Shown here: in pieces, positions 15,291-44,608 of the stretch
Position numbering within the stretch: the stretch's first letter is position 1
Layout: every line of letters begins with the position of its first letter
Source of the DNA: Mytilus galloprovincialis
Lineage: Eukaryota; Mollusca; Bivalvia; Mytilida; Mytilidae
DNA length: 64,000 nucleotides
Assembly: GCF_965363235.1 (NCBI RefSeq)
Contig: NC_134841.1
Location: 34,315,440-34,379,439, forward strand
Direction of reading: 5' to 3'
Notes under the pieces: generated by a model
The model's input: only the letters and a program-made list of their open reading frames with translations
What the model was told of the DNA's origin: nothing
The model's database searches: none
Translations under genes and position numbers: made by a program

Positions 15291-15589
15291 AGAGGGACGA
15301 AAGATACCAAAGGGACAGTCAAACTCATAAATCTAAAACAAACTGACAACGCCATGGCTAAAAATGAAAAAAAAAAAAAAACAAACAACAGCACACACGA
15401 CACAACATAGAAAACTAAAGAATAAACAACACGAACCCCACCAAAAAACTAGGGGTGATCTCAGGTTCTCCGGAAGGGTAAGCAGATCCTGCTCCACATG
15501 CGGCACCCGTCGTGTTGCTTATGTGATAACAAATCCGGTAAATAGTATAATTAGGTAAGTCACATTCATGAAAGGGAAGGGGATTGTAG

Positions 15590-16135: not shown

Positions 16136-16360
16136 CAGTGACGCTCAGATCAAAATAGGTATAAAGCCAAACAAGTACAAAGTTGAAGAGCATTTAGGAC
16201 TCAAAATTCCAAAAAGTTCTGCCAAATACGGCTAAGGTAATCTATTCCTGGGATAAGAAATCCTTAGTTTTTGTAACAGGAAATTTATAAAAATGACCAT
16301 ATAATTGATATTCATGTCAACACCGAAGTGCTGACTACTGGACTGGTGAGCCAGATATTG
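16125..16360. repeat. R2 repeat, partial unit
   Basis: Starts CATAAGACTCATCAGTGACG at the edge of the RT fragment and runs to GACTACTGGACTGGTGA. Its position suggests the RT segment and R2 belong to one composite insertion. Confidence 0.8.
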
Positions 16361-16550: not shown

Positions 16551-16609
16551 TCAAACTTGGGTGTCTTCGAACTGTTTCGCCTCTGTAGCCACAAGATCGG
16601 TTGCTTTAT
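16551..16609 (-). CDS. Gene A exon 21 (last) and stop
   Basis: Acceptor TTCTATTCCAG|ATAAAGC; completes Asp825 and encodes KATDLVATEAKQFEDTQV then TGA (16551-16553). Gene B ends eight residues earlier by comparison. Confidence 0.75.
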
Positions 16610-19600
16610 CTGGAATAGAAACCAAAGAATACTGAGATTAATTTCCTTATGAAGCTAAATTGCAAGGACATAGAGGCGAATATTGTTTTGTTAAGTAAAC
16701 GGGGTTTTCATGTTCGTTTACGAAGATTTAAGTTTGAGAGTACACGTTTACAAACTTTAAGTTTTAAGTTTGAGAGTACAGTCATTTGTATCATTCTGAG
16801 TGTCTGACATAAAACAACTTTTTGACGATCGATAGTTACATTGACATCTTTGTAAAACTATATCAAATTATAATTACGATTAGTTTTGTTCTCGAACGAA
16901 CACTTTAAAATGTACTTATGTACTTCTAGTACAAATTTAGGTTTGCTGTTAATGTTATAGTAATTGTGTTTGTCCTAAACTATTTTAAAATATCTGATGT
17001 TGCTATATGAAAGGTATTTAGAAGGATACGTTCGATATAAAAGTAAAAGAAGAAATTATTATATATACAACAGTCTCTACCATGTGCACATAACTGTTAT
17101 GACTATTTCTAATAAGAAAGAAATACACATAATGTACATTACCTGTAAACGTGATGTATAAAAAAATGCAGGCCGAATCAGTCACCGAAATCGATTTTCC
17201 TTTTTAACTTTTTAACTTTTTTGGATTCGAACGTCACTGATGAGTCTTTTGTAGACGAAACGCGCGTCTGGCGTAAATACAAAATTTAATCCTAGTATCT
17301 ATGATGAGTTATTGTCAAGGATTATTGGACCTTACAGTTTCTGTTGACATAATTTTCCAAAATATAACCTGTTGAGCACACGATCAATACTCTTCAATTG
17401 AGTCAAAATCAAAGAGTACATTTAGAGTAAATGAGAGTGAACTATTGTCCTGCAAGTCAATAGGATATCAGGGATGTTGCTGTGCTTACTTTGCCGAAAT
17501 TGAACTAGAACTAAATATCGAAAAATTTGTATTTCTAACATACCGGGTATATTCATTACAGATTAACATTGATTTATCCCGTACAATCTATATGAACGAA
17601 AAAAACCCGCTGATTTTTACCTCAATAACAAGCAAACCAAAAAGCACAAGTAGGAGACATCAGTCACACTGAATATAATAACAAATAGAAGATAAAGAAG
17701 AAAATACTAACAATAGTCGAAAAAGTGACTCAGAGATCAGCAGTTGCAATACACCTATTGCATTACTCTATAGTTATTATTCATTGACGAGACAAACATA
17801 CTTTCGTCTTTGAAGTGTCTACCATCTAACTCTAGGACATTACCAACTTGAAATATAAACCACCGGTTCATGTGAATTTGCTAACATTATAACATTTCCA
17901 AATATGTATGAGAACGACTGTAATGGAAATAGGATTGACAATTACGCATTAAGGTTGTTAACGATAGAAACCACAGACACATTGGAAAAAAATCACTGAT
18001 ACAACAGCGAAAACATAGTAAAGCAAAAGTAATATGATAACCTTTCAAAATATATATCAATGCGATATGGCGATTGTGGTGATGTTATAAACGAGAGGAA
18101 GACGACGTAATGTTTGCTTCGACAAGCGTAACTTCATATCTATGATCATAGGTTCCAGAGATATTCTGCTTTCTATAATAGTGTCAACCAAATCATGATG
18201 GCGTCCGTAAAACTTTCGAAGAAATAACATCCGGTCATCATCTAGAACCATTGTCACAATAACTCATTGAAAGCAAACAAAAAAAGGAAATTGCAAGCAT
18301 TTGGCTATCATATCAACTTTGATATTTAAATATAATTTTGTTTTATTTAAATATGCTGTGAAATTGCCACATACAAATAAAAAAAATCACAATGTGAATA
18401 TCGAAATCACCTTTTTTTTTCGTAAACGTTTGAAGTTGTAAGTAAAGATATTACACAGGCATTGTGGTGTTCTTTATTTTATGTCAAATAGAAACGTCCT
18501 TTAAACATAGCCAGAAAGCATAAGCATTTTGTTATTTTTAGCAAATACTCTTCAAAAGCTTTATGGAAAAAAAAAAATAAAAATCTAATTGCACATATAG
18601 CATTTGTCTTGATAAATAAAACGAGAATGATATGTTGATTCCATACTAATGTTTTTGATCAAATCATACGTAATTTACATTATTTACCATCACGCAGTTT
18701 ACTCTAACCACATATTATTGAAATATATTTCTGTAATAGTTTTACCTAAACGCTGAACAGGAACTGAGCTATGGTCTGTTTGGTTTTCTTGAATCATCTT
18801 TGAAAAAAATACGACATGCCTAAAATCATACAACACGTCAGAAATGTTGAACATGGCAAACTATAATATAAGTAGACTGTTAATAAGTAATTTTTATGAT
18901 TATCTATGAAAACTTTAGAAGTGAAAGATAAATTATACTATAGTGATGTATCCACCTAAATCTCACAACGAGTATGAAATTTTCTACCAAAATCTTTTGA
19001 TATAATTGTTAGAAATCTTTCTTGTTACATACAGTTAAAATAGATTTTCGTCGAAGAATGCACGTCATTACCTTAAATTATAGTCAGTACATCTAGTGTC
19101 AATAGACTGCGTTTTACCGGTCAATAAATAACATTTCTTTCCTGTGGAGATTTTGAGCTTATTAATGATGAATATGCTTATAAGAGAGTTGAACATTTAT
19201 ATGTCATTCAAACATTAACTTCGATATTTACTTGGCCTTTTTGAACTTATTTGGTTTCGAGCGGCACTGATGGGTCGTTTGTAGACGAGTCTGGCATATA
19301 TAAACTATAAATATTTTCAAACAGTTCTGTAACTCCAGTATAAGCGGATCTAGGGGGGGACTTTTGTGGGAAAAAACTGATTATTTAGAGAATCACTTAA
19401 GCATGACTGGAGCGCCCCCCTTCCCTCTTAAAAAAAGTTTTGGATCCACCACTACATCCAGACAACATTTTACTAATGAAAAGTAAGAGACTAGTCAATA
19501 TGGTATCTCTACGATAATGGTGAACCCTAATTATTGATACAAATTACGTAAAACATATAGTAAAAAGTTAAATCACACAAATACTGAATTCCGATGAAAA

Positions 19601-22600
19601 TTCAAAACGGATAGTCCCTAATCAAATGGCAAAATATGTTTCGAAATATGTTTTACATCACATCTTTTAACTTTTCAAAAGACTAGTACTTTAGACTAAA
19701 TACAACGATCTGAAAGAGAAATAATGAACAATATTCTCATACCAGGCAAAGGAATTCATTTTCATTTTCCAAGCAGAGAAAGTTTGCTGAAAAATAAGTC
19801 TCTGTTTTTGTAGAAAAATGAGCTTAGTAAATGTTTTGACCTAAGTATGTTTATGAAAGTTATGAAAAGAGGAATTCTGGCATGTTTAAATATACAATAA
19901 CTTACACTGATTTGTTTATTTCCACAACAAATTTGCCATTTGGTTTTCTGATGTAAGCACGTTCTATCTTAACATTAGTTTCTTCATCATAAGACTCCCA
20001 GTTACCACTAGCATCTTGATACTGCCAAGTAGATTGGACTGGCTTCACTGTTAAATATCAATTGGAAAGTTATGCCTTGAAACAATATGTTACATATTCA
20101 AATTAGTCTGGATGAAATAGAAGAATAAAAACGCAACGTTAACAATGTTTTCTCCTTTAAGATTTCAAATAAACCTTTGACAACTTATGTTGATACAAAT
20201 AAGTTGTTATGACATACTGTCTTCTTGAAAGTACTTATAATGCAGCTTTGAATAAACAGTGATGTGGGTCTGCATTGATGTCACAGCCAATCATATAATG
20301 AAATATATAAAGACAGTGATGCCTATGAAAAGTTGCATATAAAATTTATTAAAAAACCTTGGGAATATACTGTAAGGCCTCGAATGATGCATGTCGTTCC
20401 GAACTTACAAGACAACCATTGAAAAATAGGATAATATTATGTAGTATTAAATTCTGGTACCATTTAATCACTTCAGAAGGAAGTTTAGTTCACAAAATAT
20501 ATAATGCTACAAAAAAAGCAACCCATGGGTCCAAAGGTTAAATATTATTATTCAAAACTTAGGTTTATCATATTTGTCAAATGATAACCTTACTATTAAA
20601 CCCCTGTTTGGTTTTATAAAACAAAGACTAATCGACCAGGGTTTTCAGGAACAACATGCAAATATTTCAGCATCTCCAAAATTGACATTTTTCCAGTGTT
20701 TACAAAATGAGTGAACGGGCAGGCTATGTTGATGCTTTAAGAAATAAATAAGATCGATCATCATTGTGTAAATTAAGAGTTAGTGCTCATGACCTTGCCA
20801 TTAAAAGAGGAAGATATTTTAAAGTGCCCAAAGATCAAAGAATTTGTGAAATCTGTAAAAGTGGCGAAATTGAAAATGAACAGCACATGCTGCTACACTG
20901 CAGAGGTTACTCCAGTATTAGAGAGACTTTTGTATTAAAAATGTTCAAAATTACAGGAAAAATATAACCACATTGTGCGATAAAAATAAAATAAATCTTA
21001 TACTTAATAATACATCTTATACGGCTGTAAAATTATCTTCCTCTTTCGTAACAAATTGTTTAAATGCAAGAAGTAATCTATTGCAATATATTTACATTAT
21101 ACCTTTAATCTTTTATTCACATATATATATAATTGTTTGTATTTTACTACCATGTATTGCAAATTGTTTATCCATTCGGTCATTACCATTTATTGTAAAA
21201 GCGTTTGTGCCAATAAAATATTGTTTATTGTCTATTGTCTATTGTTTATAAAGCAAAACAGGAGAAGACGTGATTGTGCAAGCTAACAGAGATTTGCCGT
21301 TGACAACACATTCTATAAAAAGAATGCTATTCAAATATAAACAAAAACAATTAAAAACCAATTGTTCAGAGAATAATTGAAGGTCTTTCCACTAGTAAAG
21401 GTCTATTTTGATATTGAAATATGAAAAATCAGTTTTAAATGTTAGTTCCTATGGCTTTATGATGTATTTATATGAATTTAAATCAAAGGTCAAAATCTAG
21501 AACGTCCTTTTAATATATGACCTTGACCTAAATTTCAAGGTCACAAACCAAGGACCTTAAATCATAAGACCCTAGGTCTTTAATATGTTTGGTTAATGAG
21601 TAATACCACTTTACGCGTAATTCTAAATGTAAGATGGATAAAAACTCCAATTTATTGTATTCGCACCCTTTCAACCAAAATATAAGAATAAGGACATGTC
21701 CCAACTAACAATTTAGGAAAAAATATTTGTCGATATGTCATACAGTATTTGAAAATAAGTGAAAACAAGCCAAAATCAAATTTTAGAATATGACCTTGAC
21801 CTTTGACCTTGACCTTATTTTCATTTTTTTGGACCAAGGATCTTAAATCAAGAGACCCTAGGTCTCTATCACTTATGGTTTACCAGTTATAAACGCATAT
21901 CACCTATATCAAATACATAAGGGGGAATAACTCTCATATGGAGTCTCTGGATAGCTTCGGTCAAAATTAAAATCCTAATCCTGAAGATGTAACGAGCAAT
22001 TTGGTAAAATAATTTTGTCGTAATCTTTTACGGTTGCGAAGGAGTAGTGGCCACAAGAAAAACAGTGTTTGGGGAGATAACTCTTACAACGTAAAGTTTT
22101 TTGTTATGCCGTTGTAAATTTTTAAAGCGTATAAACTATACGACAACATATTCCAAATATTTAAGCGACATCTTTTGAAACATCAATACTACGCAAGAAA
22201 ACATTTAGGCGGAAGAAAAAAAAAAAAAAAAAAAAAATAATAATCAGAACAAATTCAATAGGTCTTTCCACGGAAAGGTGGAAAGACCTAATAATTACTG
22301 ACATGTTCCTTTTTCACTGTATTTGCATAGAAACGTATGAGTAACAGTACTGTAACATTAAAAATAAACGTGATGAAAACAACCCTCACTTTGTTTTTAT
22401 ATCTCCACCAATAATCTACTAATATAATATATAGAGGCACTAACTTACTTCAAAAACACACAAGTATATCCTATCGGTATTACAAAAGATAAATACACAG
22501 ATAAAAGTAAAACATTTACAATAAAATCAATATATAGTGATGATTGCACTTACTGATAGCAAGATTTAGTAGTGCGAATAAATTTGTTTGTATGAAAATC

Positions 22601-25600
22601 CTGCATTTTGTTAGTTATAAACTTACTTTTATTGGTATGGGTAGGTAAAATAAGGGGTAAATCGGATACCATTTCCTGTCGTCTCTTATCCTCGTCGTCT
22701 ATCAAATCAGGTGAACCAATTATTCGATCATCATCGCTGCATGAATCAAAATTAAACTATTGCAGATAAACAAAACGATGACTTTTTTAGACACTTAGTT
22801 AGAACTGTTTCTCGATAGCTTGATCTGGATATAACAATAAATTTGTAACAACTCCCATGGCAGTTCAACTAACACTGTTACATTGGATATTCAAAGAAAT
22901 ATAGCTACTAGTTTTATCAATCTTTAAACTTATGTTCGATTGGGGGATAATGTATACCACAATGGAATCAGTAGTCTGACGGAAAATAAATGTGTCACTC
23001 TATCTGCAGATATATTATGTATAAACTGTATAATCTTTGTAAAGAATCTCGTTTTCTTGTAATTATTCAAACACAATTAGTCTAACTCATCCTTAGAGTA
23101 CAACTATCTAATTTATTTGAGGTAAATGATGACATTGGAAATGAATTAAAGGTTTTTGTAGGATTTGAACATAAAATATGTTGCCTAAATCAAGGCAACA
23201 TTAGTATACCGCTGTTCAATAGTCATACATCGATTAAGCGAAAACAAATCCGGGTTACAAATTAAAGCTAAGGGAAACACACAAAACAATAAGAATAAAA
23301 CAGAACAGAAACACTGAACTGCAACAAAAACAAACGGCAAAATACATGGAAACGGACTATTTGATAACAACTGCCATATCACTGACTAAGTACATGACAT
23401 ATTAAGAAGAAGAAACCTGGTTTCATGGCTTACCAAACCTACCGTTTAAATGGCAATGTTAAAAGTATCTCTTAAAATACAACATTACGTGACAGGAAAA
23501 CTTTACAAATAAACGCAAGATAACTCAGGACAGAGCCATGAACGGATACATAATATAATATTACATTACAACAGAATAACAACGGACAGGCTCCTTAAAT
23601 TTATAGCAGTAAACCACATCCCGGACAAGCAATAAGTAAAATCACAAAAATCTGAACTCCGAGGAAAATGCAAAACGTAAAGTCCCTAATCAAATGGCAA
23701 AATCAAATGATAAAACACTTGAAGACAACTGGACAACAACTGTTACTTTTCTGACTTGTTAAAGGCATTTTCAAATGTTGAAAATGGTAGATCAAACCTG
23801 GTTTTATAGCGCTGAACCTCTCACTTGTATGGCAGTCGCATCAAATTCCATTATATTTACAACGATGTGTGAACAAAATGGACATAATATGTAAAATTGC
23901 CAAAATAGGGGACAGCAAACAATCATATGCCAAAATCAAAGATACTTTATTTAAATGATTTGCACCACGTGACTTTGTCCCTTTTGATCAAATTACTTCC
24001 CTTTGCTCAAGATTGAAAATATAATTTATCTTAGATTTGCGGATAATCTAGTCCTTTTCCGTCATGTATCTAAAACTTTTGTATCTTTAAAAACTTCCTT
24101 CGCCGGATAAATACAAAAATGCTGTGTAATTATGAGGGAAAATGCTTAAAATTTGACTTTTTACGAAATGGGAAGGTTGAAATCATCATGTTTTTAAAAG
24201 AATTTGGCCGAAAACTTTAGAAAGCAGGTAAGTTAAAAGTTATTTGTCTTTAAAATTTAACCTATAAGGTGTTTCCCTGTATGCGAACAAACCATAAACA
24301 ATATCTTTTTGCATATGTATTTCTGTTTTGGATCTTGCTATTTTACGATTTTCCGTTATTTTTTATGATCTTATATAGCAATTATACTATGGCTACGCTT
24401 CCGATGTTTAAACTAAAAAGACCGAAAGATTTCAGAGTAGACAATGTCCATTTGTTCAAGGACAGAAGCCTAAAAATATGTACAACTCACCCGTATGCGA
24501 ACAAATTGTTCATTCGACATATAGGTATTGGCATATTGACATTTTTATTAAAGGGCCTTTTATAATCCTATTGTTATGGCTGCCGTCATGATAAGGCAAA
24601 ATGGCCGCTTTGCAAATTTGTAAATTACCCCAAATTTTGCTAATGTGCAGAATATAATTGTGTACCAAATTATAAGTGGAGAAGCAAGTATAGTGGTTAA
24701 TAAATATTCCGACCGCTAAACACCCCCTTGATATTAGAATTTCTCATGATAATCGTCACAGCAAAACTAAGGATAAACAGAGGGACTTGTCGTGTTCTTG
24801 ATAGTGATTGTCCTTTCAAGCTGGCTCCTTCCGATAGAGCACATGTCTCAGATAATTTGATAATAAACTCATCATAGATACCAGGATTAACATTTTATAT
24901 ATACACCAGACGCGCGTTTCGTCTACAAAAGACTCATCAGTGACGCTCAAATAAAAAAATGTTAAAAGGCCAAATAAAGTACGAAGTATAAGCGTGCGCT
25001 TGAACTAACGTCGCATATTTCAATGACCATATTATTTTTTTATAACAAACACAGCATGATTATATGTATAAAAAAGACAAAATAAGATATTACGTATCAA
25101 ACTTCTAATTGTCATGTAACTTATAAAGATATCTAGTTGAGGAATTGTCCTTAAAATTTATATTATAACGTAATAAACTTACTCTTAAGGTATAGAACCA
25201 CAAGTGTATGGCCGGTGGGATGGAACATACAAGAAAGTAGTACACATTTTAAACACAATAGTTCCTACAGTACGCATAGCTGTATCTTTGTCAATAGGTG
25301 AACTATTTGGGTAGTTTTGGTATCTAATGATAGCTTGGGGATTGGGATCACTACAGAAACCTTGTTGAAGTTTCTTTTGAATGAAAAAGAAGCATATAAA
25401 ATTAAAGTAAGACGGCACATTTGTCCTGTTTATCAGACTAAAAAAACTGCCACTTTATTTGAACTTAAGACAACGTAGCCATTATTGCTCAAAATTGCTG
25501 AATTTAACATAGTAAGCAATGGGGCTATGAATTAGTGGTTTTATATCTTAAAGGTTATATATCAAATGCTATTGATTGATTATTGCGTCTGGTATTTTAG

Positions 25601-28600
25601 TGATAAGCACATCAATTTAAAACCAAGCTATAAGATAATTATTTTGTTGTTTGCCATACTGTTTGTTGTGGGCATTGCAAAAGATCTCTCTTCCTGTTTT
25701 ATGAAATATTATATGAAGTACAGCAACTACTATCAGTGTAGAACGGCATTATCTTATAATTAGCAGATTGAGTTCTTTGAGCTTGGGTTCAGTAAATTCA
25801 CTAATTCTTTGAAAGAGTATATTATATTATTTATCGTTTGTTTGTATTAGTGTATTTTTTTTTATCTGTTTCACCGTCATTATTTAGTTGAATGTGTTTT
25901 CTGCCCTGCTTAGTATTTTAGTATTCTATATCTTTTTTAGTATTTCTTTTGTCAAATCACTGATCGAGATTGATTGTTGTTATTTATAAAAAATGTAGTT
26001 AAGTATTGCATATTTATATGACTATCTCAAGTCAAGAACATTGTCATTGATTTAATGTTTTGGTATGTTAATGGTTTGGGTATTTTGAAGAGTTGGTGTT
26101 GTTAGTAGATATATCAATAATGATAAACCTTTGACAGGGTTTGGTTTAAATTATCCACGACGTGTATTGGCTCTAGATCTAGAGCTTGACAGATTTCGTA
26201 AACACGTCTTGTTTTATTTTGTCCGTTTGCGTATTTGAACAAACAATGAATGTTGTTTATTTGTGTGTATGAATAGCTGTCTCTCCGACGTAAACCCCAC
26301 ATTTATCTTGACTTATTATATTGAATAAAGTATATTAATTTTCTTATGTCAATAAAAGAAAAAAATTGTATTCCGGATACGCGTTACCGCTATTGCAAAT
26401 ACTTTGCTATAATGCTGCTTTCGATTTGCGTTTGCATTTTTTACTATGATTAAAATATAATAGTTGAATACAATGGAGTTACACACCAGATTGCCACTTC
26501 AAACAGACCATCACATGCAAATTTGTATGTTCCAAGTCTTCTTCGATCCCAGTGAACCTGAAATTGTTGTTTTATATGATAAATATTATATCTAGGGGAT
26601 ATTATTTGTTTTGTTTGAAACCCGAATGCAGTTTTATTTTTACAAAAAAAATTGAGTTAGATTATCCCTGATAATCGATAGTACTAATATGTTGCAATGA
26701 CCGAATCTAAGATTAAAAGTAAACTGATAAAAATACCGAACTCCAAGGAAAATTAATATTGCAAAGTCCCTTATCAAATGGGAAAATCAAAAGCTCAAAA
26801 TACATTGAACGAGTGGAAAACAACTGTCATATTCCTGACTTGGTGCAGGAATTACCTTATGAAGAAAATGATGCATTAAGTTTAGATTGATACTATTAAG
26901 TACTAAAGAGAAGTAAATATGGTATCAAACTGGCACTTAAATCAAATATATATAGTCTATCTCCTATAAGTACAAAGTTATACAGATAGCACACCACAGT
27001 CAGATGTATAGTTTCGCATTTTGGCCCAGACGAAGTTTTTAAATATGAAAGCTATTGTGTAATAAAATTCATGTTGTGGAAGCTGAAAATTAATGTTGCC
27101 TTCAAAGATGGTTTACATGTAAACATCAATATTGTGTTATGTATGTATTATGGGCTATCTTCTGTTTGAGAATCCGTTTTCTCATACCATACCAGTTTTG
27201 ATATTTTCAAAGTGAGTGATTTTCTTATTTACTATAATTTTGACAAACGAAATCAATTTTGAATATAACATTTTACCTTGGATAACTATTCCTTGGAATC
27301 CTTACTTGAAGAAATATTTAAAAAAATTTATATTTTCATATAACGAAACAGAGTTTGAAACTCAACATCTTGGCTAGTTCTGAAACCTGGAACCAATTTC
27401 GATTTCAGAAAATTCTGCTAAAATCCAAGGACGAACAGAGGTTTCTCAAAACTTGTGATTTTCTATAACAAGAACAACACTCCAAATTACCTCACACACC
27501 CTGCCAGCTACTGTTACGGGGAGAAAATCAAGAGACATGCTCATCAATATTTATACAATAATCCTTTAATTCTATAGAAATACTAAATAATTCATATTTG
27601 ATAATTTGAATATATTAAACGACCGAAAGCAGAAACATAGCTTAAAATGCAAAATCAGGAGAGGGGATACACCATATATTAATGATATAAAAAATCGAAT
27701 CAAATGAACATTTTAAAAAGAAAATTATACTAATATAGTGTACAGTATTTTTGATGAGAGATTGATGGCTAGGACTGCTTTGAACTGATGTGTGCGTGTT
27801 TAATATTTATTCCTTCAATACAAATACATTAAGAAAAAACATACCACAACTTTCCCGTTGGGTTCAACACATAGGACAGTACCTCGACAACCTCTTCCAC
27901 CGTCCTGTTCACCGTACTTCCAATCTTTACCTGTAAACATAAACAAAGTACACAAAGTCGAAGAACTTGATAACAAAATACGATGTATTTAAGGGTGAAC
28001 ATTAGATACTCTTTATACCAAGGTAGTCTTTCAACATGTTTAATGGTCCAATCAAACAGTTCATTATTGGTTGTTGCTATTTCATAAGGCATTTTATGTG
28101 TTCAAAATTCGGTTTTGTTGGCAGGACTTTTGTTTTCCCTGCTTTCTTTATTTCCATTTCACCTCGCCCTACGTTCTTTATTCAGAATCTTTTTTGTCGG
28201 AATTTTGATTACATACTGTTAAAGGGCCACTAGTTGCCAAATTCATAATCACCGATTTGACTCAAATTCTCATATTTTATTTATAACAATGTAAAACATT
28301 TTTCCAAACTATCAAAAGTATAAAAAAAACAATTTACAGGACATGGTCTCAATAAGATGTAGCTTCATTTCGTGTGAATTTTAGCCAAGACGCCATCTAA
28401 TGTATTATCGAGTTGACCTTCTATGACCTTCTATGACCATATAAGCGATGTAAACATAAACAGAGATATAAATAGATTAAGCAACTCGTGCAATTAGATA
28501 TAGGTCTGTTAAATTTTGTATTATGGCTTTATGCTGATCGTCGTTTTTACCTTTTTAAGAATGATTTTTGGTGGATCGAATCAGTCGATCAAATTATTTA

Positions 28601-34600: not shown

Positions 34601-37600
34601 GCACTATTTGTGACTGTATGTACTCTTCAAAACGTTATAACATTAAGAAATGATATTTATACACAATGCAACAATCGAAAGGTTTGATATTACCATTATG
34701 ATCAATGTTGAATAAGTACTCTATCTGTTCTTAGATTTATTCTTACCAATAAATCTGATACAAAAGACTCTTCCATTATTCCAATACTTTCTCTGTCTTC
34801 TTCACTAAGAGCTTCTACGCGAGTTGGCATTCCATCCGTTATCACAATAATGTTAGGTAGGAAATCATTGTTCTCGAGGGTAGTGGAACCACCTTATAGA
34901 AAATTCTCATTTCAATTGATTTGTAAGGAAAATTATATAATCTACATATAGATTTACATACAATCTTGTCTGAAATAAGGGCATTGCTTTCCTTTCATAA
35001 TTATTGAAAAAAAGAAAGAAAAAGAACATGTTTCCATTGTTAAGATTAAGAAGAGCAGCTATATGGCTATACAATGTAAAATAAACATACAGTTGTGAAT
35101 TCCGGACAATGCCATCAACAGACCAGCTGCTAAAGGAGATGGACCACAAGGTCTCAACTTGGCTGAAATATAATACTGATGTTTAAATAAAGATGGAATA
35201 GAAAAAACAATCATGATTTATAAATTTAAAAGTGTAGAATAAATAAATTATAAGCTCCGTTTTTTTAAAGCTTTTGATTGGTTCTGATTGTCTCAATATA
35301 GTTAGTGGAATTTAATTTAACATGACCATGTAACACATCTTAATGTTTAAATAAAATATTAAACTAAGTTTCCAATATCAAATTAATATACATATTTATA
35401 ACTTTGGAATTTGATTTGTACTGTTTTCCGTTATTGTGAAATATGAGTCTATATGATATCTAATGTACCTATTTCTCTTTTGATATAATCATACTCTGGT
35501 ATAGGATGCGTGATTAATTCAGTGTCTCTTCCAAAATGAGCGAGTCCAACGTTATCTCGTATACCGTATCTTAAACTGACCTGATGCAGACCTGTTCAAA
35601 AGTAATGTCTACAATTAACAATGTCTTAAGACACCAATAAAAGTCGAAAACGGTGTTGGATGACCTGCTTCTTTAGTTTTAAGTTCTGCTTTTTTCCCCC
35701 TTTATAATCTTTCCAGGGTCCTGAGTGTATCTACAGAAAAATTATTTATCTTACAGCAGCTGCCGTGCCAAATGCAAATTTTTATCCTACATTTACTGTT
35801 ATTATTATAAGCCTGTTCTAATTTTGAACGAAGCAAATACAAGTATGTTGAGTTTTGATTTACCTTATAGTTAATTCAAAGACAAGTCTGTTTCGCATTC
35901 AATAAATAAAGAACAGCTCATTTCTCGTTGATCTTCATAACTATTCTGTATAAAAATAAGATAATTCATAACATGCATTTTATTGAAAATTATTTGTATA
36001 ACATTTAATTATAATGATTGATATTTTTTACCATCGATGAATTTAGTTGCAGTTCTTATCATTGTCTCAAATTTTTCTCCTTGCATACTCTCTGATGTGT
36101 CCAAGAGTAACATATAGTTATGTCCGCTGGCACTCCTATTGTTATTACTAAACGCCAATTCCATACGGACTGTAAAGTAAGAAGTAAATGCTTACAGAAA
36201 AGCTGATATATATTTCTTCTCAGGATAGATAAATATTGTGGATTTATTTTTATTCGTGGGATACCAATTTTTGTGGATTTCGTGGGTACAGGCGAACCAC
36301 GAAATTAAATGATAAACGAATAACAAATTACTATAGGTGTGTATTCAGACATGGGCGAAACCACGAAATTTAATATCCACAAACATTAAGTTTTCCTCAA
36401 TCCACGAAAATTGGCACCCACGAAAATAAATGAATCCACAGTATTGTGTTTTATTGCCTTTTTTGTAATCAACATGAATCGTTATCACTGAATATTTAAA
36501 TTGTCAACTTATTTCGTCATCCCAAAACTCCAAAGATATTTCACATTGTATGTTGTACAATTGAAATTTGGACCAAGTACCAAGTATCAACCTGTACCAA
36601 GTCAGCTCTTGATTTTGCCTTTTGAATACGGACTATGTGTTTAGTAAGTAACCGACAGAAGATGAAGATTAGTAAGAGCAACTAGCTGTCCATGTAAATC
36701 AAAGAATATAGTTAACATCTGAATTAAATTTCAACGAAAAAATATTAGAGGGCTTTATGTCTTATGAAATATTGAATTATTGCTTAGCTAAGATATATAT
36801 ATACATGTATATATAAATTACAGCTTTACGTTAAAGATAAGTTCACGACATATACAAAGATGTTATTATATAAGGAATATGCTTATAGTTAAAAGATTTT
36901 CTAATTTAAATAATTAAAATTGAAGCCAAATAATAGTTTACCTTTACTTCGTGCCTGTCCAGCGATTGCGATCCAGTCAGCGTACGAATGAACTTTCTGT
37001 CCTCTGTCAAAATCTAAAAGTTAAAGAAATGGAGTCAGACATTGTAATTAAACAAACATACAAATAGATAGACAATTCATATTGCTGTCCTTTTTGGAAA
37101 GCCTGTTAACATTTTCTATCTATGATTGTAGTATGACATTCCCAATTACTTTAAATTTTTATATATTCAAACAAAGAGATCTGGTATGAGACGACTATGC
37201 ACCAAAGTGTAAATAGGGTTGATATTACTTATTATAGATAATCGTCCGGATTCAACAATCAACAATAATGTGTCCCATGTACACTATCATTTTCTTTGTT
37301 CAGTGTACCGTGTAAATGGGATAAAATCTCTAATTTGGCATTCAAATTAGAAAGATCATATCATAAGGAACATGTTTACTAGGTTTCAAGTTGATTGGAC
37401 TTCAACTTCATCAAAAACTACCTCGACCAAAAACTTTAACCTGAAGCGAGACAGGCGGACAAAACGAACGAACGTCCGAACGGAGCCATAGACCAGAAAA
37501 CACAATGCCCATAAATGGGACATAAAAGCCGATTTCGTTTAGGCGGCCATAACAGGCCCCGACATATGAAGATTATGACACAATTCAATTGAAAAAGCAA

Positions 37601-40600
37601 TGGGTTAATTTATGACAAAACAATTACGATATATATATATATATGACAGACATGAACCAACGACAACCACTGAACTACATGCTCCTGATGTGGGGCAGGC
37701 ACTTAAAACAACTTAGCGGGGCTAAACATGTTTGTGAGTGCTCAAAACTGCCCTAACCTGGAACAGTAGTGTTATATAACAAACTATATTTGTTGATGTG
37801 TTTCTTTGATAGTGTCTAATATATATTACTTGTTGTTTTAAATTGCCTTATTCCTGTCTTATAATCTGAAAACACTATTTGATTGTCTTTTGATTGTGGT
37901 CACTAAATACATTCTGGTATTTACATTACTTGCCATTTTAAACTAACTTTGTAATTTAAGATTACTGTTACAGTCAATACCTTGAGTTCAAACTTTGTTA
38001 TTGTCTCAATTTGTTCATTATTTGTTGACCTAGTTCAGACTGTTTTACACCAACGCAATACCTTATGATTGTCATTTATGTTTATGTTTTAGTTGTTTGT
38101 TCTGTTCAGTAAAGGCCATCCAAAATATACTAGGACTATTATAAGCCTGGTACCTTTGTTAACTATTAACAGAATTAATCAATATTCTTTTTCTGTCTTT
38201 TTCAAAACTATTGATCATGAAGTATGTATGTATCTATACTTCCTGGTTTTAAAAATGTTGGGTTCCAGCATTCCCAATGATAGTCCATTCATAAAAGCGC
38301 TAAATATGTACGAAATTTATTGAGTGGTCTTCATTCACCTTTTTTTCATTTACTAGTTATAAGTCGATATCACTACACTTAGTGCTAATCCATGATGTTT
38401 TTATCATTTCAGTAATCAGTGCTTCGGTTCTAACATGAATTATTGTCATTTGTCATGAAACTTATGATACTATTGTAGTAATTACCTCTGTTAGCATTCT
38501 GAGACAATGCTATACTTTCCCTCTGTCTTTCATATGATCTAACGTGTGTCTGATTAGGACTCCTGGCAAACAAAATATCATTAAGCACTGACATGATTGA
38601 TTTAATACAATTTATTAAAACTATAAAATTCCTAAGAATTGATGGTCCAAAATCCTTTCGGCAAAGTTGTTCTTAGCTTATTTTTGGCTATTTTTTTCAG
38701 GTCGTCTTTGGTGATTCAGCTCCTCATATCTTTAAAGATATATAAAAAATCTAAAGTTTGATTTTTTTGTTCAACCAATAATGAAAGTGAAATAGTGAAA
38801 TAACAATTCGCTTTTCAGGGGCGGATGCAGGAATTTTCGAAAGGGGGGGTGCTAACCCAGGGCAAAGGGGGGGTGCAGGGGGGTGCAAAACATATGTCCC
38901 GATACAAATGCATTGATCGGCAAAAATAAAGGGGGGGTGCGCACCCCCGGAACCCCCCCCTCTGGATCCGCCACTGCTTTTTGCAGCCAAAAAGGGTCAA
39001 TTTTGTCAAATTACGCAAAGAAACATTGCTAATAAGGTATTCACTTGCAAGTGAATGAGTCGACCTCTTTAAATCCGTATTCATGTGAACTCGAATTTAA
39101 CCCCTAGCTAGAGATTGACAACGCATGCATTGTCATGCGCGTAGCTACGTTTTCGTCAAAACGCCCGGGCGTACACTTGAATTTTGAAAATAAAACAAAT
39201 AATCGACATAGAATATAAGAAAAACTGGTCAAAAGCACATCAGTCTTGTGCTTCTTTTCTTAATGAATTGTAATTTTGAATGAAAAGGGACTAAATTTAC
39301 TCAAATAGATCATTTAATATAATTGTTCGAATCTTTTGTAAAAGTCTGAATCCACTATGAATTCTACGTACTTTTCTTATATTAAAAGCAATTCACTATC
39401 TGCTCAGATTCGATATGCTGTTTGTATTTTTGTCGAGCCTGTGATTTATGTCCCAAAAGCGAGACAAAGCGGCGTAAATATTTAGGTTCCGAATGTGGAT
39501 AAAGTCTTTTGAATGACTCTCTGTGAAATTTTACGAAAGTTATACAGAAACTGTTTACGATCAAAAGAGTATTCAGAGCAATATACTAATGCAATTATAT
39601 CTTTTATTTGCCCGCATTTTAAGGACAAAATGTATTTCTTTCTGCAATTAATAAGTAGTCGCAGTTTGGGTTTGGGCTTACATTTTGTTATTTCTCAATT
39701 ACATTAACTACTTGTCGAACCTTCATCGAAATTTATGAAATATGCCGAAGAAACTTTTTCTTTGACTAGTGTCTAAAGCTAAAATTTTGAAAGCATTTGT
39801 TTTCATTCATTTTTCGGTTCTTTTCTGATAGACAGATAGCCGGGCTCTTCTTTACGCAATTAATTGTTTTACATGCTCAATTTACAAACCTTCATAGATT
39901 GTCGTGAAATATTCCAGATCAAGAAAAAATTATCAAAAGAAAATTTTAGATTTTTTTTTAAAAGCCATTTAAAGGAATGATAAATTGTTTCACTTTATGT
40001 GGAAAGAAGTCCTAGGTGTTCCAGATTTTTTTTTATACTGCACCTCTTAGAAATATTTATTTTTTCATGTTCATTAAGGGGTGCTTTTGTTGATTGTATG
40101 CTCACTCACGGCACCCTTTAAACTTATTTAAAAGTAATATTGGTTTGGACGTTTTCTCTAAAACCAATGACCATTAGGCTAGCTTCAAGTTTAACACGAT
40201 GAATAAGTTGACATATTACAAGATTTAACCAAAAAAATAAACCATTTAGATTCAAAAGTATATATATGTTGTTATCAATGATTTTTTACTGACAGGAATC
40301 ATTATGGTATCTCATTCTCGATAGCTTTCAGGGGCTTCGTCCCTTTCGAACCCACTACCAACAGGTGCTTTGACATTGGGCGGTTGGCACCCCTCATAAC
40401 CCTCGCCAAGGTTCGGGCGTACACGTAAAAATGACCCAGCTACGCCACTGATTGTACGTGTACTGGTTATTCAAAGAAAACGAATATCAACAATGAAAGT
40501 GAAACTAGAGTAAATCATTTGATTACTAATTCGATGCACATAAAATTATTCTTACACGAACAAAAGCAATGAGAAACATCTATTTTTGATCTATAAATTA

Positions 40601-43600
40601 AAATCAAACAGACCTATAAAAATCCAATTGCAGCGTTGGTTTAATCTATTCATATCTTTATTTATGTTTACATCGCTTAATGGTCATCTGAGGTCAAATC
40701 GATAGTTAATTAGGTGGCGTCTGGACTAAAATACAAACGAAACGAACCTATATATTATCTACCCCATGCTCTGTAAACTGTTTATTTTAGGCTTTTGATA
40801 GTTTGAATAAATGTTTTACATTGTTGTAAATCAAATATGAAAATTTGAGTCAAATCAGTGACCATGAATTTGACAACTAGTGCCCCTTTAACATCTTTCC
40901 CTTTCTGTTTGAAATGTTCCTGAGGACTAAATGCAATCCCCGAAAAACGCTCCTGACGTACCAATTTTCAGTGTTATTTTCCTCTATTGTTTTTAGTCAT
41001 TCCGTATTGAACAAAGCAAGGAAACAAAAGTGTATATGATGATCAAATGTATTATCATCTTCCAACAAAGCCGTAAAACAATTTTCTGAGAAAAGTTTAT
41101 TTCAATGGCAACATTTTTACATGCTTTCATGATAACGCTAAAATTAATGAATTTACTTTTTTCCAATTCTAAGTTATAAACTCTAAAGTCAAAGATACCA
41201 GCAGTATGGGCGACGGAAAACAAGATAGTTAGGCGATTACATTTTTGTACAAAAAATGATAGTATAGGCGATTAAGAACTTGACATATACGAAGAAGACA
41301 TAATTCCTATGTGCACCTCTAAATGTCTGTAAACAGTTGTTAATTTATGTTTATGGTTACCATTTTTCTTAGTTTCTTTTGTTACATACTCTTAAAACTT
41401 TCGCTTGTTTAAAGTCAGGAACATATAGCATTTGTTTGTCTTAAGTGTCGTTTTAATTTTTTATCATTTGTATGTTTCGGAGTAAAGTGTGGCGTCCATC
41501 TTTCTGAACTAGTATACATCATTGTTTAGGACCAGCTGAAGTCCGACATCGGGTACGAGACTTCCTCGCTACATCGAAACCCATAGTTGGTCTCTGACTG
41601 TTTTCTGTTCTTTGTTCGGGTTGTTGTCTGTTTGACACATTCGCCGTTTCTATTTTCTATTGTATTTCAAAATGTTTCTTTGTTTCTAAATTAACGTTAA
41701 CACGTCTTGCAATTATGTAACTTATATCATACATTTTTGACTTTATCATTGCACACTAGTATTAGTGTTAGGACGTCCTGTATGTTATTATATGAAATTT
41801 ATTCGTTAATAATTTCGTACCTTTCATTCACATAATTTATCTTTATGTTGGGTGAAGGTTCTTTTTTACTCTGGATTGCGGTTGTTGCAATCGGTGGATT
41901 TAACATTTCACCTTGAAAGCAGAGTTTCTTTCTCTTATAACACATTCTATTGTCATGGTTTTCATTGGTTCTGCAATGTTTCAAACCGTTTACTAATTGT
42001 CTGATTTTTGGTTTCTGCCGCTTTTCTTCTTTTAAAATGTCTACGTTACTGACTTTATCTTCTATCTGACTTCGGCAATACTTGTCTGCTACTGTTTCTT
42101 GTTCTACATCTTTCTGGTATTTTGAACAACTCTCCTGTCCTTTTTCATACATTTCTTTAACATTTTGCCCACGGGATGATGTCGCAGTTTCCTGTTCTGT
42201 TTGATTTGGTTCTTTCTGGGTTAAATATGTATCAGTTTGCAATATTTGTTTATTCAATTCGGTTGATTTTTCAGTTCTTGTTCTATTCTTTAAGGCAGAA
42301 GAAAGTATATCCAATTTCTTGGATAACTTTTCTGTTGTTCCTAGTATTGCTTGCAGCTGAGAAGAATCTCTACACGTTATGTTTTCACAATTTGCTAAAT
42401 GCTCCTCGATTCCTTAGATAAAGCATAATCATTGTTACGTTGATATTTCAGTAATATATAAAAAAAAAAAAAAAAAAAAGCTTGGGAAACACCAACATTC
42501 TCTTCATTGAACTTAACATTACAATAAATTTAAAGAGTAGCTTCAAGAAGGGTCATACTTGACTCTTGACATGAAATTCACTGACATTTATTATGTAACA
42601 AAATGAGTTTCAGCATCTGAAAATCACAAAATCAACAAGTATGAACGAATTACATGTTGTTATGAATTCATAGTTGCAAACATTTTTTTGTTATATAAGT
42701 GACTATTTAAAAAAAAAAGATCTTGTGTAATCTAAAGACTTGATTTTAATAAATAACATAATATAATACTGAGAGTTACATTTAGATCTTTCTTGTATAT
42801 CCTTCTATAAAAAATAAGGATATGTGGTATGAATGCCAATGAGACATCTATCCATCAAAGTTCAAATAAAGTGGCCGTTTTAGTTTAAATTGATAGGATT
42901 GTAATATAAGAAGAGGATTTTAAACAAATATTTCAGCTGAAAATATCGCTGTCGTCAGTGTATTTATTTTTATCAAACATTATACACATTAACCAGTTAC
43001 CCTTTATAAACCAACGATAATCAATTTTAAAGAATTACTGAGTTTGTCGATTTGTCAAATGACTCATAAATCAAACCTTTTCTATGCTACTAAATTTAAC
43101 TGTGGCATCAATATATTTTCTTCTAACGATTGTTTACCATTTTATGTTCATAGAATTCCTTAAGATAATAAAACACTTTTCTTTTATCAAATGTATAGTA
43201 TATTGTATTATTCACACATTTTATTTAAAACATGCAAATAGGGAAAAGATCTACCTTCAAGTCGTTTTATCTCACTACTAAATCCAGTGTTGCTGTAAGA
43301 TAACAAATAATTATGAATTCTTGCTAACAAAAAATGAGAAATACATGCACAAAGAATAATGTATAAGTTTTCATAACGTACAATGATCGTTGCCGTTGCT
43401 TGTTAACTGTCACTCACAAATTGATCTATCTTACAGAAGCACCTTTGATGCGCCCGAAAATTAGAAATGCGAGTTTGGTGTACTACACTATCAATCTTAT
43501 CTCTTTCTTGATTGGTTTGAAGATATGAATTTTTACAAACTTACAACTGTTTAGCATTTGTTTTCTCTTTCACACGGTTCTGTGTCAGTTGAAGGTCTTG

Positions 43601-44608
43601 CATGGCATTCTTAATAGTTTCTACCTAAAAATATATATCAAACCAGTATTATAAAGGAAAATATGCCAATAGTGCAAAATTTTTAACTACAATATATTGA
43701 AAAAAATATATTTCAGATTATTTGGAAATGAGTATTAGATTATGCAACACAAAAGATACAATCATACATAATGCTTTGTCATTAGGCGGGAGGGTTCGGC
43801 TAGCCGTGAAACCAGGTTTAATCCACCATTTGTTCTGTTCAAAGTCAATAATATCGACACGAATGGTATAAAACTTTCCTTACATTTACCATTCATTCCT
43901 AAAACACGGTCGTACAATTGAAAAAAAATCATTTTCAAATATGGAAAGAAGCATGCATACAAGATTATGGGTTCACCTTAGCTCTTTTACTTCAAACATA
44001 GAATTTTTATGCGGATTAAGTCGTTTTGACAAGAAAACAACATCAATGCAATATATTTTTTTTTAATTTTCAGGGGACTTGATTGATTAACATAGATACG
44101 CAGATTATATTAAAACCAGACGGAAAAGTTATAAGATTTATTGCAAGGCATTAAACATCTTTGGAAGATATTGCTGGGTAAAATCCGAAAAAAATTGACA
44201 ATTGAAACTGAATAAACGGACAGTAAACACAGTAAAAAGAATAGAATATAAAAAGGGAAACCAGTCTGAAATGAGAATTATTGCTGTCAATTAAGAAATT
44301 CAGAAATTATTGCAGTGTTTTTATTATTGCAAAAAATTCAACAGGGTAACCATTTTAATCGTAATAATTTATTTGATTTAAACAGTATTTGTCTCAATAT
44401 CGCAAATATTAAAATCGCATTTTTGTCTTCAATAATTTTTGAATTTACAGTAATCTGGAATATTTTCTCACATTTTCATCATTAATAAGTCTCTTTAGGG
44501 GTAGAAAGAGATGAAGAATTGAAGTGAATAATAATAATAAAAAAAAGAACATGAAGTAAGCCGACTGTTATTAAATCATGAACCTACCATATCTGATATA
44601 GCCGCCAT
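16551..44608 (-). CDS. Gene A: VWA - MIB/HERC2 x2 - WWE protein, complete
   Basis: Twenty-one coding exons total 2,532 nt, 843 aa plus stop; every junction is GT-AG and phase-consistent. Order: residues 1-110 helical, coiled-coil-like; 110-290 charged, Lys/Glu-rich linker; 310-490 VWA with MIDAS DTSES at 317-321 and ITDG at 422-425; 517-580 linker; MIB/HERC2 at 585-643 and 655-715; acidic linker; WWE at 758-800 (W760, W769, E781); short tail. No RING, HECT, PARP, signal peptide or membrane segment is seen, so it is likely intracellular. MIB/HERC2 modules bind partners in ubiquitin ligases and WWE domains bind ADP-ribose forms in known families; a role in such signalling is inferred. Gene B downstream in the window is a tandem paralogue. 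I know no named orthologue. Confidence 0.85.
16620..18740. other. Gene A last intron: repeats and old fragments
   Basis: Mostly AT-rich. Holds a short R2-related piece at 17220-17295 (GACGAAACGCGCGTC) and the decayed RT fragment at 18057-18257. No other exon was found. Confidence 0.6.
18057..18257 (-). pseudogene. Decayed reverse transcriptase fragment
   Basis: FLRKFYGRHHDLVD matches LRKFYGRHHELVD at the end of the RT fragment at 15.6 kb; the rest of the frame is degraded. It is a short relict of the same element family inside gene A's last intron. Confidence 0.6.
18746..18819 (-). CDS. Gene A exon 20
   Basis: 74 nt, encodes HVVFFSKMIQENQTDH and SSVPVQRL (residues 801-824). Its twin in gene B is at 49644-49717 with two changes in the first five residues. 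Confidence 0.85.
19339..19456. mobile_element. Diverged small MITE (GCGGATC-ended)
   Basis: Inverted ends AAGCGGATCTAG and TTGGATCCACCACT; TCCAG may flank both sides. Internal sequence GTGGGAAAAA...AATCACT matches the intact copy at 54133-54277. Boundaries are approximate. Confidence 0.55.
19906..20047 (-). CDS. Gene A exon 19: WWE domain
   Basis: 142 nt, residues 754-799. STWQYQDASGNWESYDEETN and then VKIERAY show the two signature Trp (760, 769) and Glu781 of the WWE fold. One exon carries nearly the whole domain. Gene B twin: 50336-50477, 35 of 46 residues identical. Confidence 0.9.
20310..21250 (+). pseudogene. LINE 3' fragment (C-terminal region)
   Basis: Broken frames read KLHIKFIKK, ILGIYCKASN-like and then RQPLKNRIILCSIKFWYHLI, typical of the post-RT region of invertebrate non-LTR elements. 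Further on is LRVSAHDLAIKRGRY with a zinc-binding CX2C...HX4C block (CEICKSGE...HMLLHC). A frameshift near 20358 and stops at about 20750 show it is dead. It ends in a TATTGTCTATTG simple tail. Inserted antisense in gene A's intron 18. A relative is at 57097-57603. Confidence 0.75.
21380..22290. repeat. R4 repeat, copy 1 (reverse orientation)
   Basis: Shares AGGTCTTTCCAC, GACCTTGACC/TTTGACC blocks, TTACGGTTGCGAAGGAG-like and GGGGGAATAACTCTCATATG segments, in inverted order, with the repeats at 56490-57000 and 57940-59460. The right end has GGTCTTTCCACGGAAAGGTG hairpin and an A-tract at 22217-22237. Confidence 0.7.
22627..22736 (-). CDS. Gene A exon 18: acidic linker
   Basis: 110 nt, residues 717-752 (DDDRIIGSPDLIDDEDKR then RQEMVSDLPLILP). 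Links the second MIB/HERC2 domain to WWE. Twin in gene B at 53285-53394. Confidence 0.85.
22740..26480. other. Gene A intron 17: repeat-rich
   Basis: Contains dispersed mussel-type repeats at about 23190-23420 and 23585-23960 (AATGGCAAAATCAAA, CCTCTCACTTGTATGGCAGT), an R2-related piece at 24860-24965, and an exon-like open stretch at 25191-25400. The dispersed family also occurs at 26690-26880 and 45770-45985. Confidence 0.6.
25191..25390 (-). other. Unplaced exon-like open stretch
   Basis: Minus-strand frame KKLQQGFCSDPNPQAIIRYQ through DKDTAMRTVGTIVFKM ends with a stop just before a consensus GTAAGT. It has no match in gene B and no domain I recognise. It could be an alternative terminal exon or a transposon remnant. 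Confidence 0.25.
26487..26557 (-). CDS. Gene A exon 17: end of second MIB/HERC2
   Basis: 71 nt, residues 693-715: VHWDRRRLGTYKFACDGLFE. Matches the conserved closing part of the fold (VxWDxGxxxxYxxG-like). Twin: 53732-53802. The donor must be CTG|GTGTGT, not the GT two bases later, to keep phase. Confidence 0.88.
27845..27930 (-). CDS. Gene A exon 16: core of second MIB/HERC2
   Basis: 86 nt, residues 665-692: KDWKYGEQDGGRGCRGTV. This is the diagnostic DWKxGEQDGGxGxxGTV signature. Twin in gene B at 55569-55654, 23 of 28 residues identical. Confidence 0.92.
28223..28895 (+). mobile_element. TTAA-flanked MITE family R6, intact copy
   Basis: TTAA at 28219-28222 and 28896-28899 flank a 673-bp segment that begins AGGGCCACTAG and ends CTATTACCCCT, short inverted ends of the TTAAAGGG type. 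Such ends are known from Kolobok/T2-type elements; the assignment is inferred. No coding capacity. This copy provides the empty sites for the insertions seen in the second copy at 38.7-40.9 kb. It lies in gene A intron 15. Confidence 0.75.
28987..29130 (-). CDS. Gene A exon 15: joins the two MIB/HERC2 domains
   Basis: 144 nt, residues 617-663: KIRVEWDSGNENVYRYD closes the first domain and VGCRVKRG opens the second. Twin in gene B at 59513-59656, only 29 of 47 residues identical, the least conserved part of the MIB region. Confidence 0.9.
29377..29690. repeat. R1 repeat, copy 2
   Basis: Same family as 9937-10190: GAAGATGTGGTA, CAATGAGACAACTCTCCA, ACAATTTATAAAAGTAAACC. This copy extends further, to AGCGGGGTTAA, which also occurs at 37720. 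Confidence 0.75.
30146..30326 (-). CDS. Gene A exon 14: first MIB/HERC2 domain
   Basis: 181 nt, residues 556-615: DDITDNVMLLLDPGTQYHGR, then LGTRVRRGPHWQWQNQDSEM and AGTVIGED. This is a GxRVxRGxxWxWxxQD signature. Twin in gene B at 60235-60415, 53 of 60 residues identical. Confidence 0.92.
30573..30689 (-). CDS. Gene A exon 13: linker after VWA
   Basis: 117 nt, residues 517-555, ending SLQELDAY. The gene B twin (61200-61307) is three codons shorter. Confidence 0.85.
30690..33005. other. Gene A intron 12, no feature
   Basis: AT-rich intron. Short frames on both strands at 31.1-31.4 and 32.5-33.0 kb overlap each other and show no domain or paralogue match. Confidence 0.6.
33010..33096 (-). 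CDS. Gene A exon 12
   Basis: 87 nt, residues 488-516: KKTFGKLIPPEQIQRLAQ. Twin at 61643-61729 is strongly similar; the paralogue fixes the acceptor at TTTAAG|ATTTTG. Confidence 0.88.
33563..33664 (-). CDS. Gene A exon 11: last strand of VWA
   Basis: 102 nt, residues 454-487. TKIFCVPIGGANTD matches the final VWA strand (hydrophobic run then IGxG-like turn). The gene B twin (62054-62161) has two more codons and a diverged first half. Confidence 0.88.
34747..34892 (-). CDS. Gene A exon 10: VWA third metal loop
   Basis: 146 nt, residues 406-453. NIIVITDGMPTRVEAL contains the D424-G425 pair of the VWA metal site. No gene B counterpart is visible in this window. Confidence 0.9.
35091..35162 (-). 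CDS. Gene A exon 9: VWA second metal loop
   Basis: 72 nt, residues 382-404. CGPSPLAAGLLMAL is the GxTxLxxAL region; Ser389 stands where most VWA domains have the metal-binding Thr. Confidence 0.88.
35469..35591 (-). CDS. Gene A exon 8: VWA middle strands
   Basis: 123 nt, residues 341-380. VSLRYGIRDNVGLAHFGRDT matches the strand with VGLxxFG of VWA domains. Confidence 0.9.
36032..36169 (-). CDS. Gene A exon 7: VWA first metal loop
   Basis: 138 nt, residues 295-339. HNYMLLLDTSESMQGEKF carries the DxSxS MIDAS motif at 317-321 with the usual hydrophobic strand before it. Confidence 0.92.
36236..36441. mobile_element. TA-flanked MITE with ~25-bp TIRs
   Basis: Left end TTGTGGATTTATTTTTATTC and right end GAAAATAAATGAATCCACAG form inverted repeats, with TA on both outer sides. 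Fits a Tc1/mariner-type MITE. It sits 66 bp upstream of gene A exon 7's acceptor. Confidence 0.75.
36942..37013 (-). CDS. Gene A exon 6
   Basis: 72 nt, residues 271-293: FDRGQKVHSYADWIAIAGQA. Precedes the VWA domain. Confidence 0.85.
37265..37530. repeat. R3 repeat, copy 2
   Basis: Collinear with 12786-13070 but more diverged; ends in GACCAGAAAACACAATGCCC. Flanked on both sides by R1 fragments (37160-37200, 37650-37745), so several insertions are stacked in gene A intron 5. Confidence 0.75.
38486..38562 (-). CDS. Gene A exon 5
   Basis: 77 nt, residues 244-269: SPNQTHVRSYERQRESIA. Charged linker. Donor AACAGAG|GTAATT, acceptor TTGCCAG|GAGTCC. Confidence 0.82.
38816..38976. mobile_element. 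161-bp G/C-run MITE with 5-bp target duplication
   Basis: Ends CAGGGGCGGATGCAGG and GGATCCGCCACTG; CTTTT occurs at 38811-38815 and 38977-38981. Internal runs of 7-8 G or C. Belongs to the same end-type group as 54133-54277 and, by its CAGTGGCG-like end and 5-bp duplication, perhaps the same superfamily as the 1,317-bp element. Confidence 0.8.
39134..40450 (-). mobile_element. 1,317-bp non-autonomous DNA element, copy 2
   Basis: Reverse complement of 3984-5300, equal in length to the base, with scattered substitutions. ATTGT occurs at 39129-39133 and 40451-40455 as target duplication. Inserted inside the R6 copy; the intact R6 copy shows one ACAAT at the matching point. Confidence 0.88.
41515..41665. 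repeat. R8 dispersed repeat, copy 1
   Basis: CAGCTGAAGTCCGACATC through GGGTTGTTGTCTGTTTGACA. Copies at 51285-51415 (same orientation) and 55875-56010 (inverted). Confidence 0.75.
41821..42412 (-). CDS. Gene A exon 4: long charged exon
   Basis: 592 nt, residues 48-243, by far the largest exon. Starts IEEHLANCENITCRDSSQLQ with helical, coiled-coil-like spacing (TTEKLSKKLDILSSALKN), then a Lys/Glu/Gln-rich stretch likely disordered, ending NYVNER. The frame remains open past the donor GAAAG|GTACGA for a few codons. Start of the exon is set by acceptor TATCTAAG|GAATCG and phase. Confidence 0.82.
43255..43292 (-). CDS. Gene A exon 3
   Basis: 38 nt, residues 35-46 (NTGFSSEIKRLE). Acceptor TTACAG|CAACAC, donor GAAG|GTAGAT. 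Confidence 0.75.
43545..43624 (-). CDS. Gene A exon 2
   Basis: 80 nt, residues 8-33: VETIKNAMQDLQLTQNRVKE then KTNAKQ. Amphipathic helix, part of the N-terminal coiled coil. Confidence 0.8.
44294..44450. mobile_element. TA-type small element, diverged
   Basis: Left GAAATTCAGAAATTATTGC and right AATAATTTTTGAATTTACAG are imperfect inverted ends, like the cleaner copy at 48738-48944. Boundaries approximate. Confidence 0.5.

Follow-up and report, generated by a model that had tools for sequence, protein, structure and literature searches.

A 21-exon gene with the domain order VWA, two MIB/HERC2 and WWE in Mytilus galloprovincialis belongs to a conserved family that has grown by tandem and within-chromosome duplication

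The window analysed in this work, i.e., the whole stretch of 64,000 nucleotides corresponding to C4:34315440-34379439 of a 1.385 Gb genome, harbors on its minus strand, from position 44608 to position 16551, a gene (gene A) whose 21-exon model, built on the genome sequence, is confirmed, and which belongs to a conserved family whose copies arose by duplication in tandem and elsewhere on the chromosome. At least four more genes of the same genome (B–E) show the order VWA, two MIB/HERC2 domains, and WWE; hence, this order is the mark of a conserved multigene family and not an assembly accident. The product of gene A joins, in one protein, modules known from ubiquitin ligases and from ADP-ribosylation, with no catalytic domain detected, and we infer, with a probability of roughly 0.37, that it may act as an intracellular non-enzymatic adaptor. 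The original prediction held that no described protein was known to have this order; in agreement with this, no description of it was retrieved from open-licence PMC papers.

Gene A was rebuilt from stop-to-stop frames, from the comparison with the flanking DNA and with the adjacent duplicate (gene B), and from splice-site scores. Its coding sequence accounts for 2532 nt (843 codons plus the stop), and the product is of about 94 kDa; all 20 introns are of the GT-AG type, with consistent phases. The exons, phases, and codons originally predicted were obtained identically, the exon matches to the duplicate exceed those of the controls given below, and the residues that had been named are in place (DTSES at 317–321, ITDG at 422–425, W760, W769, and E781). 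The original prediction was incomplete in that it left out the N-terminal region encoded by exons 1–6 (about 293 residues) and the tandem duplicate with its expanded family.

Exon 1 (44588–44608, 21 nt) encodes MAAISDM from the start codon and is followed by GTAGGT; the duplicate has an ATG and a GTAAGT at the corresponding place, and an in-frame stop lies upstream of the start ATG in both genes. This exon and the terminal exon 21 (16551–16609), which includes the stop codon, are based on position, phase, and partial similarity; they count among the weaker parts of the model, as do exons 3 and 5 on account of their small size. Exon 2 (43545–43624) and the short exon 3 (43255–43292) rest on the comparison with the duplicate and on splice scores. 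The large N-terminal exon 4 (41821–42412) has a conserved motif (CRTNxxxDNR..KK.C.QGE) near its end; the short exon 5 (38486–38562) was the top candidate on the combined splice and codon score, and the exon has strong splice sites in each of A, B, and C (77, 80, and 77 nt, respectively). Exon 6 (36942–37013) closes this part of the gene.

The reading of 42412–41821 as a separate gene ending in TAA was rejected, since this stop lies beyond a donor site having a counterpart in B. A direct joining of exon 4 to exon 6 was also rejected, because it would not match the phase of the main exon-6 acceptor and because all three genes have an exon 5 with strong sites. However, exon 6 has a second acceptor whose phase would suit this joining, at 37003 in A and at 71408 in B (window coordinates), and a skipping of exon 5 through it is possible in both genes. 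A short stretch that A and B have conserved (37825–37869, minus strand, SDYKTGIRQFKTTS, and window coordinates 71602–71646, ADYKTEIRQLKTTS; E 4e-4) falls inside the intron preceding exon 6 and has no good splice sites of the appropriate phase. Other A–B conserved blocks, among the matches listed, are repeats.

The VWA region extends over exon 7 (36032–36169, where it starts with DTSES), exon 8 (35469–35591), exon 9 (35091–35162, with GPSPL and the Ser that stands at the MIDAS Thr position), exon 10 (34747–34892, with ITDG), exon 11 (33563–33664), and exon 12 (33010–33096), whose acceptor is weak in A, being absent among the acceptors scoring above 0. After a linker in exon 13 (30573–30689), exon 14 (30146–30326, with GTRVRRG) encodes the first half of the first MIB/HERC2 domain and exon 15 (28987–29130) its end together with the start of the second one, which continues in exon 16 (27845–27930, with DWKYGEQDGG) and ends in exon 17 (26487–26557). 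A second linker, exon 18 (22627–22736), leads to the WWE domain, encoded by exon 19 (19906–20047, with the two Trp and the Glu named above) and ending in exon 20 (18746–18819, with H801, Q810, N812, and V819). According to the Pfam scan, all these domains lie above their cut-offs in gene A, thus bearing out the predicted order: MIB_HERC2 with 78.6 bits (cut-off 33.5) in two stretches, the best at residues 658–715; WWE with 43.5 bits (cut-off 21.1) at 759–823; VWA_2 with 39.5 bits (cut-off 27) at 313–425; and VWA with 26.1 bits (cut-off 23.8).

Gene B lies head-to-tail directly upstream of A (window coordinates 77109–48462, minus strand), with exons 11–21 inside the window (48462–62161) and exons 1–10 outside it. 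It has 21 exons with the same phases as A, GT-AG introns in 20 cases out of 20, and 862 codons, and the two proteins share 65% identity. When the exons of A were used as queries against the DNA of B, 17 of the 21 matched at E<1e-3, in order, versus none of the 21 in the reversed DNA of B and none in each of three shuffles. Against copy C, which lies 11 Mb from A on the plus strand (C4:23.165-23.187 Mb), 15 of the 21 queries matched, and none when the DNA was reversed. Copy C (53% identity with A) has exons 2–20 with the phases of A and a stop-free joined frame; no convincing candidate for its exon 1 was found.

Two further copies, D (C4:8.60-8.63 Mb) and E (C4:5.72-5.745 Mb, minus strand), were read in part, the exon 10 donor of E being chosen by phase. 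Both harbor exons 7–12, 14–17, and 19 in order, with exons 13 and 18 as candidates, and E has exon 20 too. The domains of B and C lie above the Pfam cut-off; so do, in D and E, WWE and the two stretches of MIB_HERC2, although the WWE of D (21.5 versus 21.1) is matched in its first half only because exon 20 was not found in this copy. VWA is above the cut-off in C and D and below it in E (16.8 versus 27). Hence, the order of the domains is kept in the five copies A–E, D and E being partial and VWA being weak in E. Next to copy E, the N-terminal and VWA exons of a further copy follow in tandem.

On the whole contig C4, at least 15 loci were counted by hand-clustering, i.e., A, B, C, and 12 other MIB clusters, several of which rest on a single exon (e.g., the one at 37.17 Mb); the counts of this search are lower bounds. 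At 11 of the 15 loci (A, B, C, D, and seven others including E), same-strand VWA exons were found upstream of those for MIB, and WWE was found at six of the 15 (A–E and the locus at 5.831 Mb). Two additional WWE matches, at C4:24708232 and C4:54579768, end near the position of the WWE intron of this family and might belong to further members.

The pairwise comparison of A and B (Nei-Gojobori, point estimates) gave a dN of 0.226, a dS of 0.531, and a dN/dS of 0.43 overall, with 0.65 for the N-terminal 295 residues, 0.45 for VWA, 0.24 for the two MIB/HERC2 domains, and 0.25 for WWE, the last being the best conserved domain (82% identity between A and B). Between A and C, dN was 0.371 and dS 1.49, the latter reaching saturation in one region. 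These A–B values would fit protein coding under constraint, with the N-terminus as the freest part. They also bear on the idea that these are fast-evolving genes for innate immune sensors or effectors, whose copies diversify against pathogens. Such a family would account for at least 15 loci, some of them in tandem, and for the faster N-terminus, and PMC8382680 interprets gene-family expansions of bivalves as an adaptation in stress or immunity. However, dN/dS is below 1 in all the regions compared (including the A–C comparison with its one saturated region), and the same paper places the "Mib-herc2" orthogroup OG314 with ancestral duplications and not with recent immune expansions; we regard this explanation as unlikely, and a stress or immune setting of the family as a guess.

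According to PMC8382680, OG314 comprises 234 genes, with 15.1 of them per bivalve species as against 0.4 per species in the other molluscs, and one of its duplications, still kept by over 70% of bivalves, is placed in their common ancestor. It resembles the family found here in the MIB/HERC2 annotation and in copy number (15.1 per bivalve versus at least 15 loci). OG314 may correspond to this family or, equally, to a different set of MIB/HERC2 loci, for instance that of contig C13.

The search of the genome with the MIB_HERC2 family model retrieved 37 matches, distributed on contigs C1, C3, C4, C8, C11, C13, and C14. Contigs other than C4 account for 33 of them, of which 26 span 44 or more of the 66 positions in one frame, 13 of these 26 being nearly complete domains, whereas the four on C4 cover at most 33 of the 66 positions each, as predicted from the introns that split each of the two domains in gene A. 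A second MIB/HERC2 group, whose domain is contained mostly in a single exon, is located on contig C13. One locus there, partly read, contains a ZZ-like finger below the cut-off and a MIB match of 30 (versus 33.5) lying 9 kb from a full one, and it is probably Mind-bomb-like. The genome, then, seems to hold more than one multi-copy MIB/HERC2 group.

As for the enzymatic part, Pfam revealed no RING, HECT, PARP, or Deltex C-terminal domain either in genes A, B, and C or in the partly read D and E. No RING-like spacing was present in the sense-strand ORFs of at least 40 aa in the regions of A/B, C, D, and E, a search that a domain split across short exons would escape. A missed catalytic exon was considered and dropped on the basis of this search, with the conserved block at 37825–37869 as a stretch that the exon model does not account for. 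Moreover, by hydropathy, gene A has no membrane-type or signal-peptide hydrophobic stretch (best 19-residue mean 0.98). The lack of such a stretch and of a detected catalytic domain makes an intracellular adaptor plausible. The original prediction of an adaptor with no catalytic domain of its own, linked to ubiquitin or ADP-ribose signalling, is therefore supported in part, by the domain scans; the ubiquitin link would hold by association, since it derives from domains usually found in enzymes, the enzyme part of which is absent here.

Such domains might also belong to a subunit that recognises substrates within a multi-protein ubiquitin ligase, the RING being supplied by a separate partner protein. 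MIB/HERC2 and WWE are known in the E3 ligases MIB1, HECTD1, DTX1, RNF146, HUWE1, and TRIP12, judging from the structure matches and from PMC11269756, but neither F-box, BTB, SOCS, nor RING scored in Pfam on gene A at E up to 1, so a subunit of this kind appears improbable.

The MIB_HERC2 region of gene A has its best match among solved structures in Mind bomb 1 (4xi6, E 2.1e-15), followed by HECTD1 (3dkm, E 3.1e-7; 2dk3). Gene A shares with Mind bomb (MIB1/MIB2) the two MIB/HERC2 domains, but it lacks the ZZ finger between them (not detected by Pfam in A and B at E up to 1, nor in C, D, and E at E up to 0.1), the ankyrin repeats (none by Pfam in gene A), and the C-terminal RINGs, and it adds VWA and WWE. 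With HERC2 and HECTD1 it has in common the MIB/HERC2 domain but not a HECT, and both of them are far larger than the gene A product. It resembles Deltex in having one WWE domain but has neither a RING nor the Deltex C-terminal domain, and it differs from the WWE-type PARPs in lacking the PARP catalytic domain. Among the solved structures, the WWE alone weakly matches DTX1 (E 0.021), RNF146 (0.047), HUWE1 (0.1), and TRIP12 (0.84); in these weak pairwise alignments, gene A shares with the four proteins the two Trp, the Glu, and the adenine Gln but not their RING or HECT.

In the WWE of E3 ligases, a conserved Gln together with an aromatic ring contacts the adenine, whereas the contacts to the proximal phosphate are made by a Tyr and an Arg, both conserved; the phosphate contacts of HUWE1 are Tyr1658, Asn1669, Thr1672, Asn1674, and Arg1676 (PMC11269756). 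In gene A, Gln810 aligns with the adenine Gln of HUWE1 and Tyr762 occupies the position of Tyr107 of RNF146, the stacking residue and the numbering of the contacts having been assigned by hand. At the five phosphate positions, gene A has His801, Asn812, Asp815, Ser817, and Val819, so that only the Asn is kept; this mapping comes from the weak HUWE1 alignment, within a full-length Pfam WWE match. B and C have the same letters as A. Copy E is closer to the canonical site, with Tyr, Asn, Asn, Thr (as in TRIP12), and Lys in place of Arg. The ligand site seems, from these residues, to have diverged within the family between A–C and E, and ADP-ribose binding by the WWE of A–C is uncertain because four of the five contacts have changed. 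The predicted ADP-ribose link is, in this way, upheld by Gln810 and Tyr762 and weakened by the phosphate site.

For the same reason, we gave less weight to the adaptor and more to a pure protein–protein scaffold or decoy, in which the WWE of A–C would be ligand-dead and the MIB/HERC2 pair would compete with a Mind bomb-type E3 for its substrates, as a natural inhibitor. This explanation agrees with the lack of a detected catalytic domain, with the resemblance of the MIB domains to Mind bomb 1, and with the other MIB/HERC2 loci on contig C13, one of which has the weak ZZ-like finger. It is at odds with the strong conservation of WWE, with the retention of its adenine Gln, and with the contact residues of copy E, and we consider it rather doubtful.

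The metal-binding VWA domains have a MIDAS motif consisting of DxSxS, T, and D. In A–C it is near-complete, with DTSES and TDG kept and a Ser at the position of the Thr, whereas the site is degraded in D (DCSER/FTDE) and E (DISER/FTDS). A metal-dependent VWA, as originally proposed, might then hold for A–C and seems not to hold for D and E, which weakens the proposal.

Returning to the intracellular adaptor, we can depict the following possible scenario. The partly helical N-terminus would aid self-association. Exon 4 of A, B, and C has no Pfam family above the cut-off, and its AlphaFold model (exon alone) has a mean pLDDT of 46, with a helix at exon residues 16–64 that is predicted with moderate confidence in its first part only; self-association is, on account of this mean value, a guess. 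Mind bomb binds its substrates through its MIB/HERC2 region and, by analogy, VWA and the tandem MIB/HERC2 barrels might bind client proteins. The WWE would recognise an adenine-containing, ADP-ribose-type mark, through a phosphate site altered in A–C and more canonical in E, and the clients would be brought to enzymes handling ADP-ribosylation or ubiquitin and acting in trans. The faster-changing N-terminus may vary the partners between copies.

A bolder, and quite improbable, version of the adaptor is that of an undescribed family of enzyme-free readers, expanded on a single chromosome, in which MIB/HERC2 would choose the client, VWA would dock, and WWE would have diverged, being a canonical ADP-ribose domain in E and having in A–C a reshaped phosphate pocket that senses another adenine-containing signal, the whole representing a diversified intracellular stress or pathogen repertoire. 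If WWE and MIB/HERC2 bind as expected, the family would amount to a large set of natural readers devoid of enzymatic activity, with which one could ask how intracellular signalling is diversified in animals that lack adaptive immunity; the WWE differences of A–C from E permit a direct and cheap comparison of binding.

Lastly, other features were observed in and near the window. Two exons on the plus strand (10400–11449) match Pfam DUF842 (E 2.6e-17 and 2.2e-19) and belong to what we take to be a FAM136A-like gene. An element fragment on the minus strand (15593–16144), with a counterpart at window coordinates 64473–64916 and shared pieces 95–100% alike, has no Pfam match for the window copy; it presumably represents a reverse transcriptase, given the YIDD motif in the first copy. 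A repeated element with internal direct repeats is present at 53949–54680 and 14876–16350, with pieces 88–94% identical between the two places. ORFs similar to hydroxylysine kinase are located at window coordinates of about 96.7k, 102.4k, and 115.1k, the first and the third being near-duplicates.
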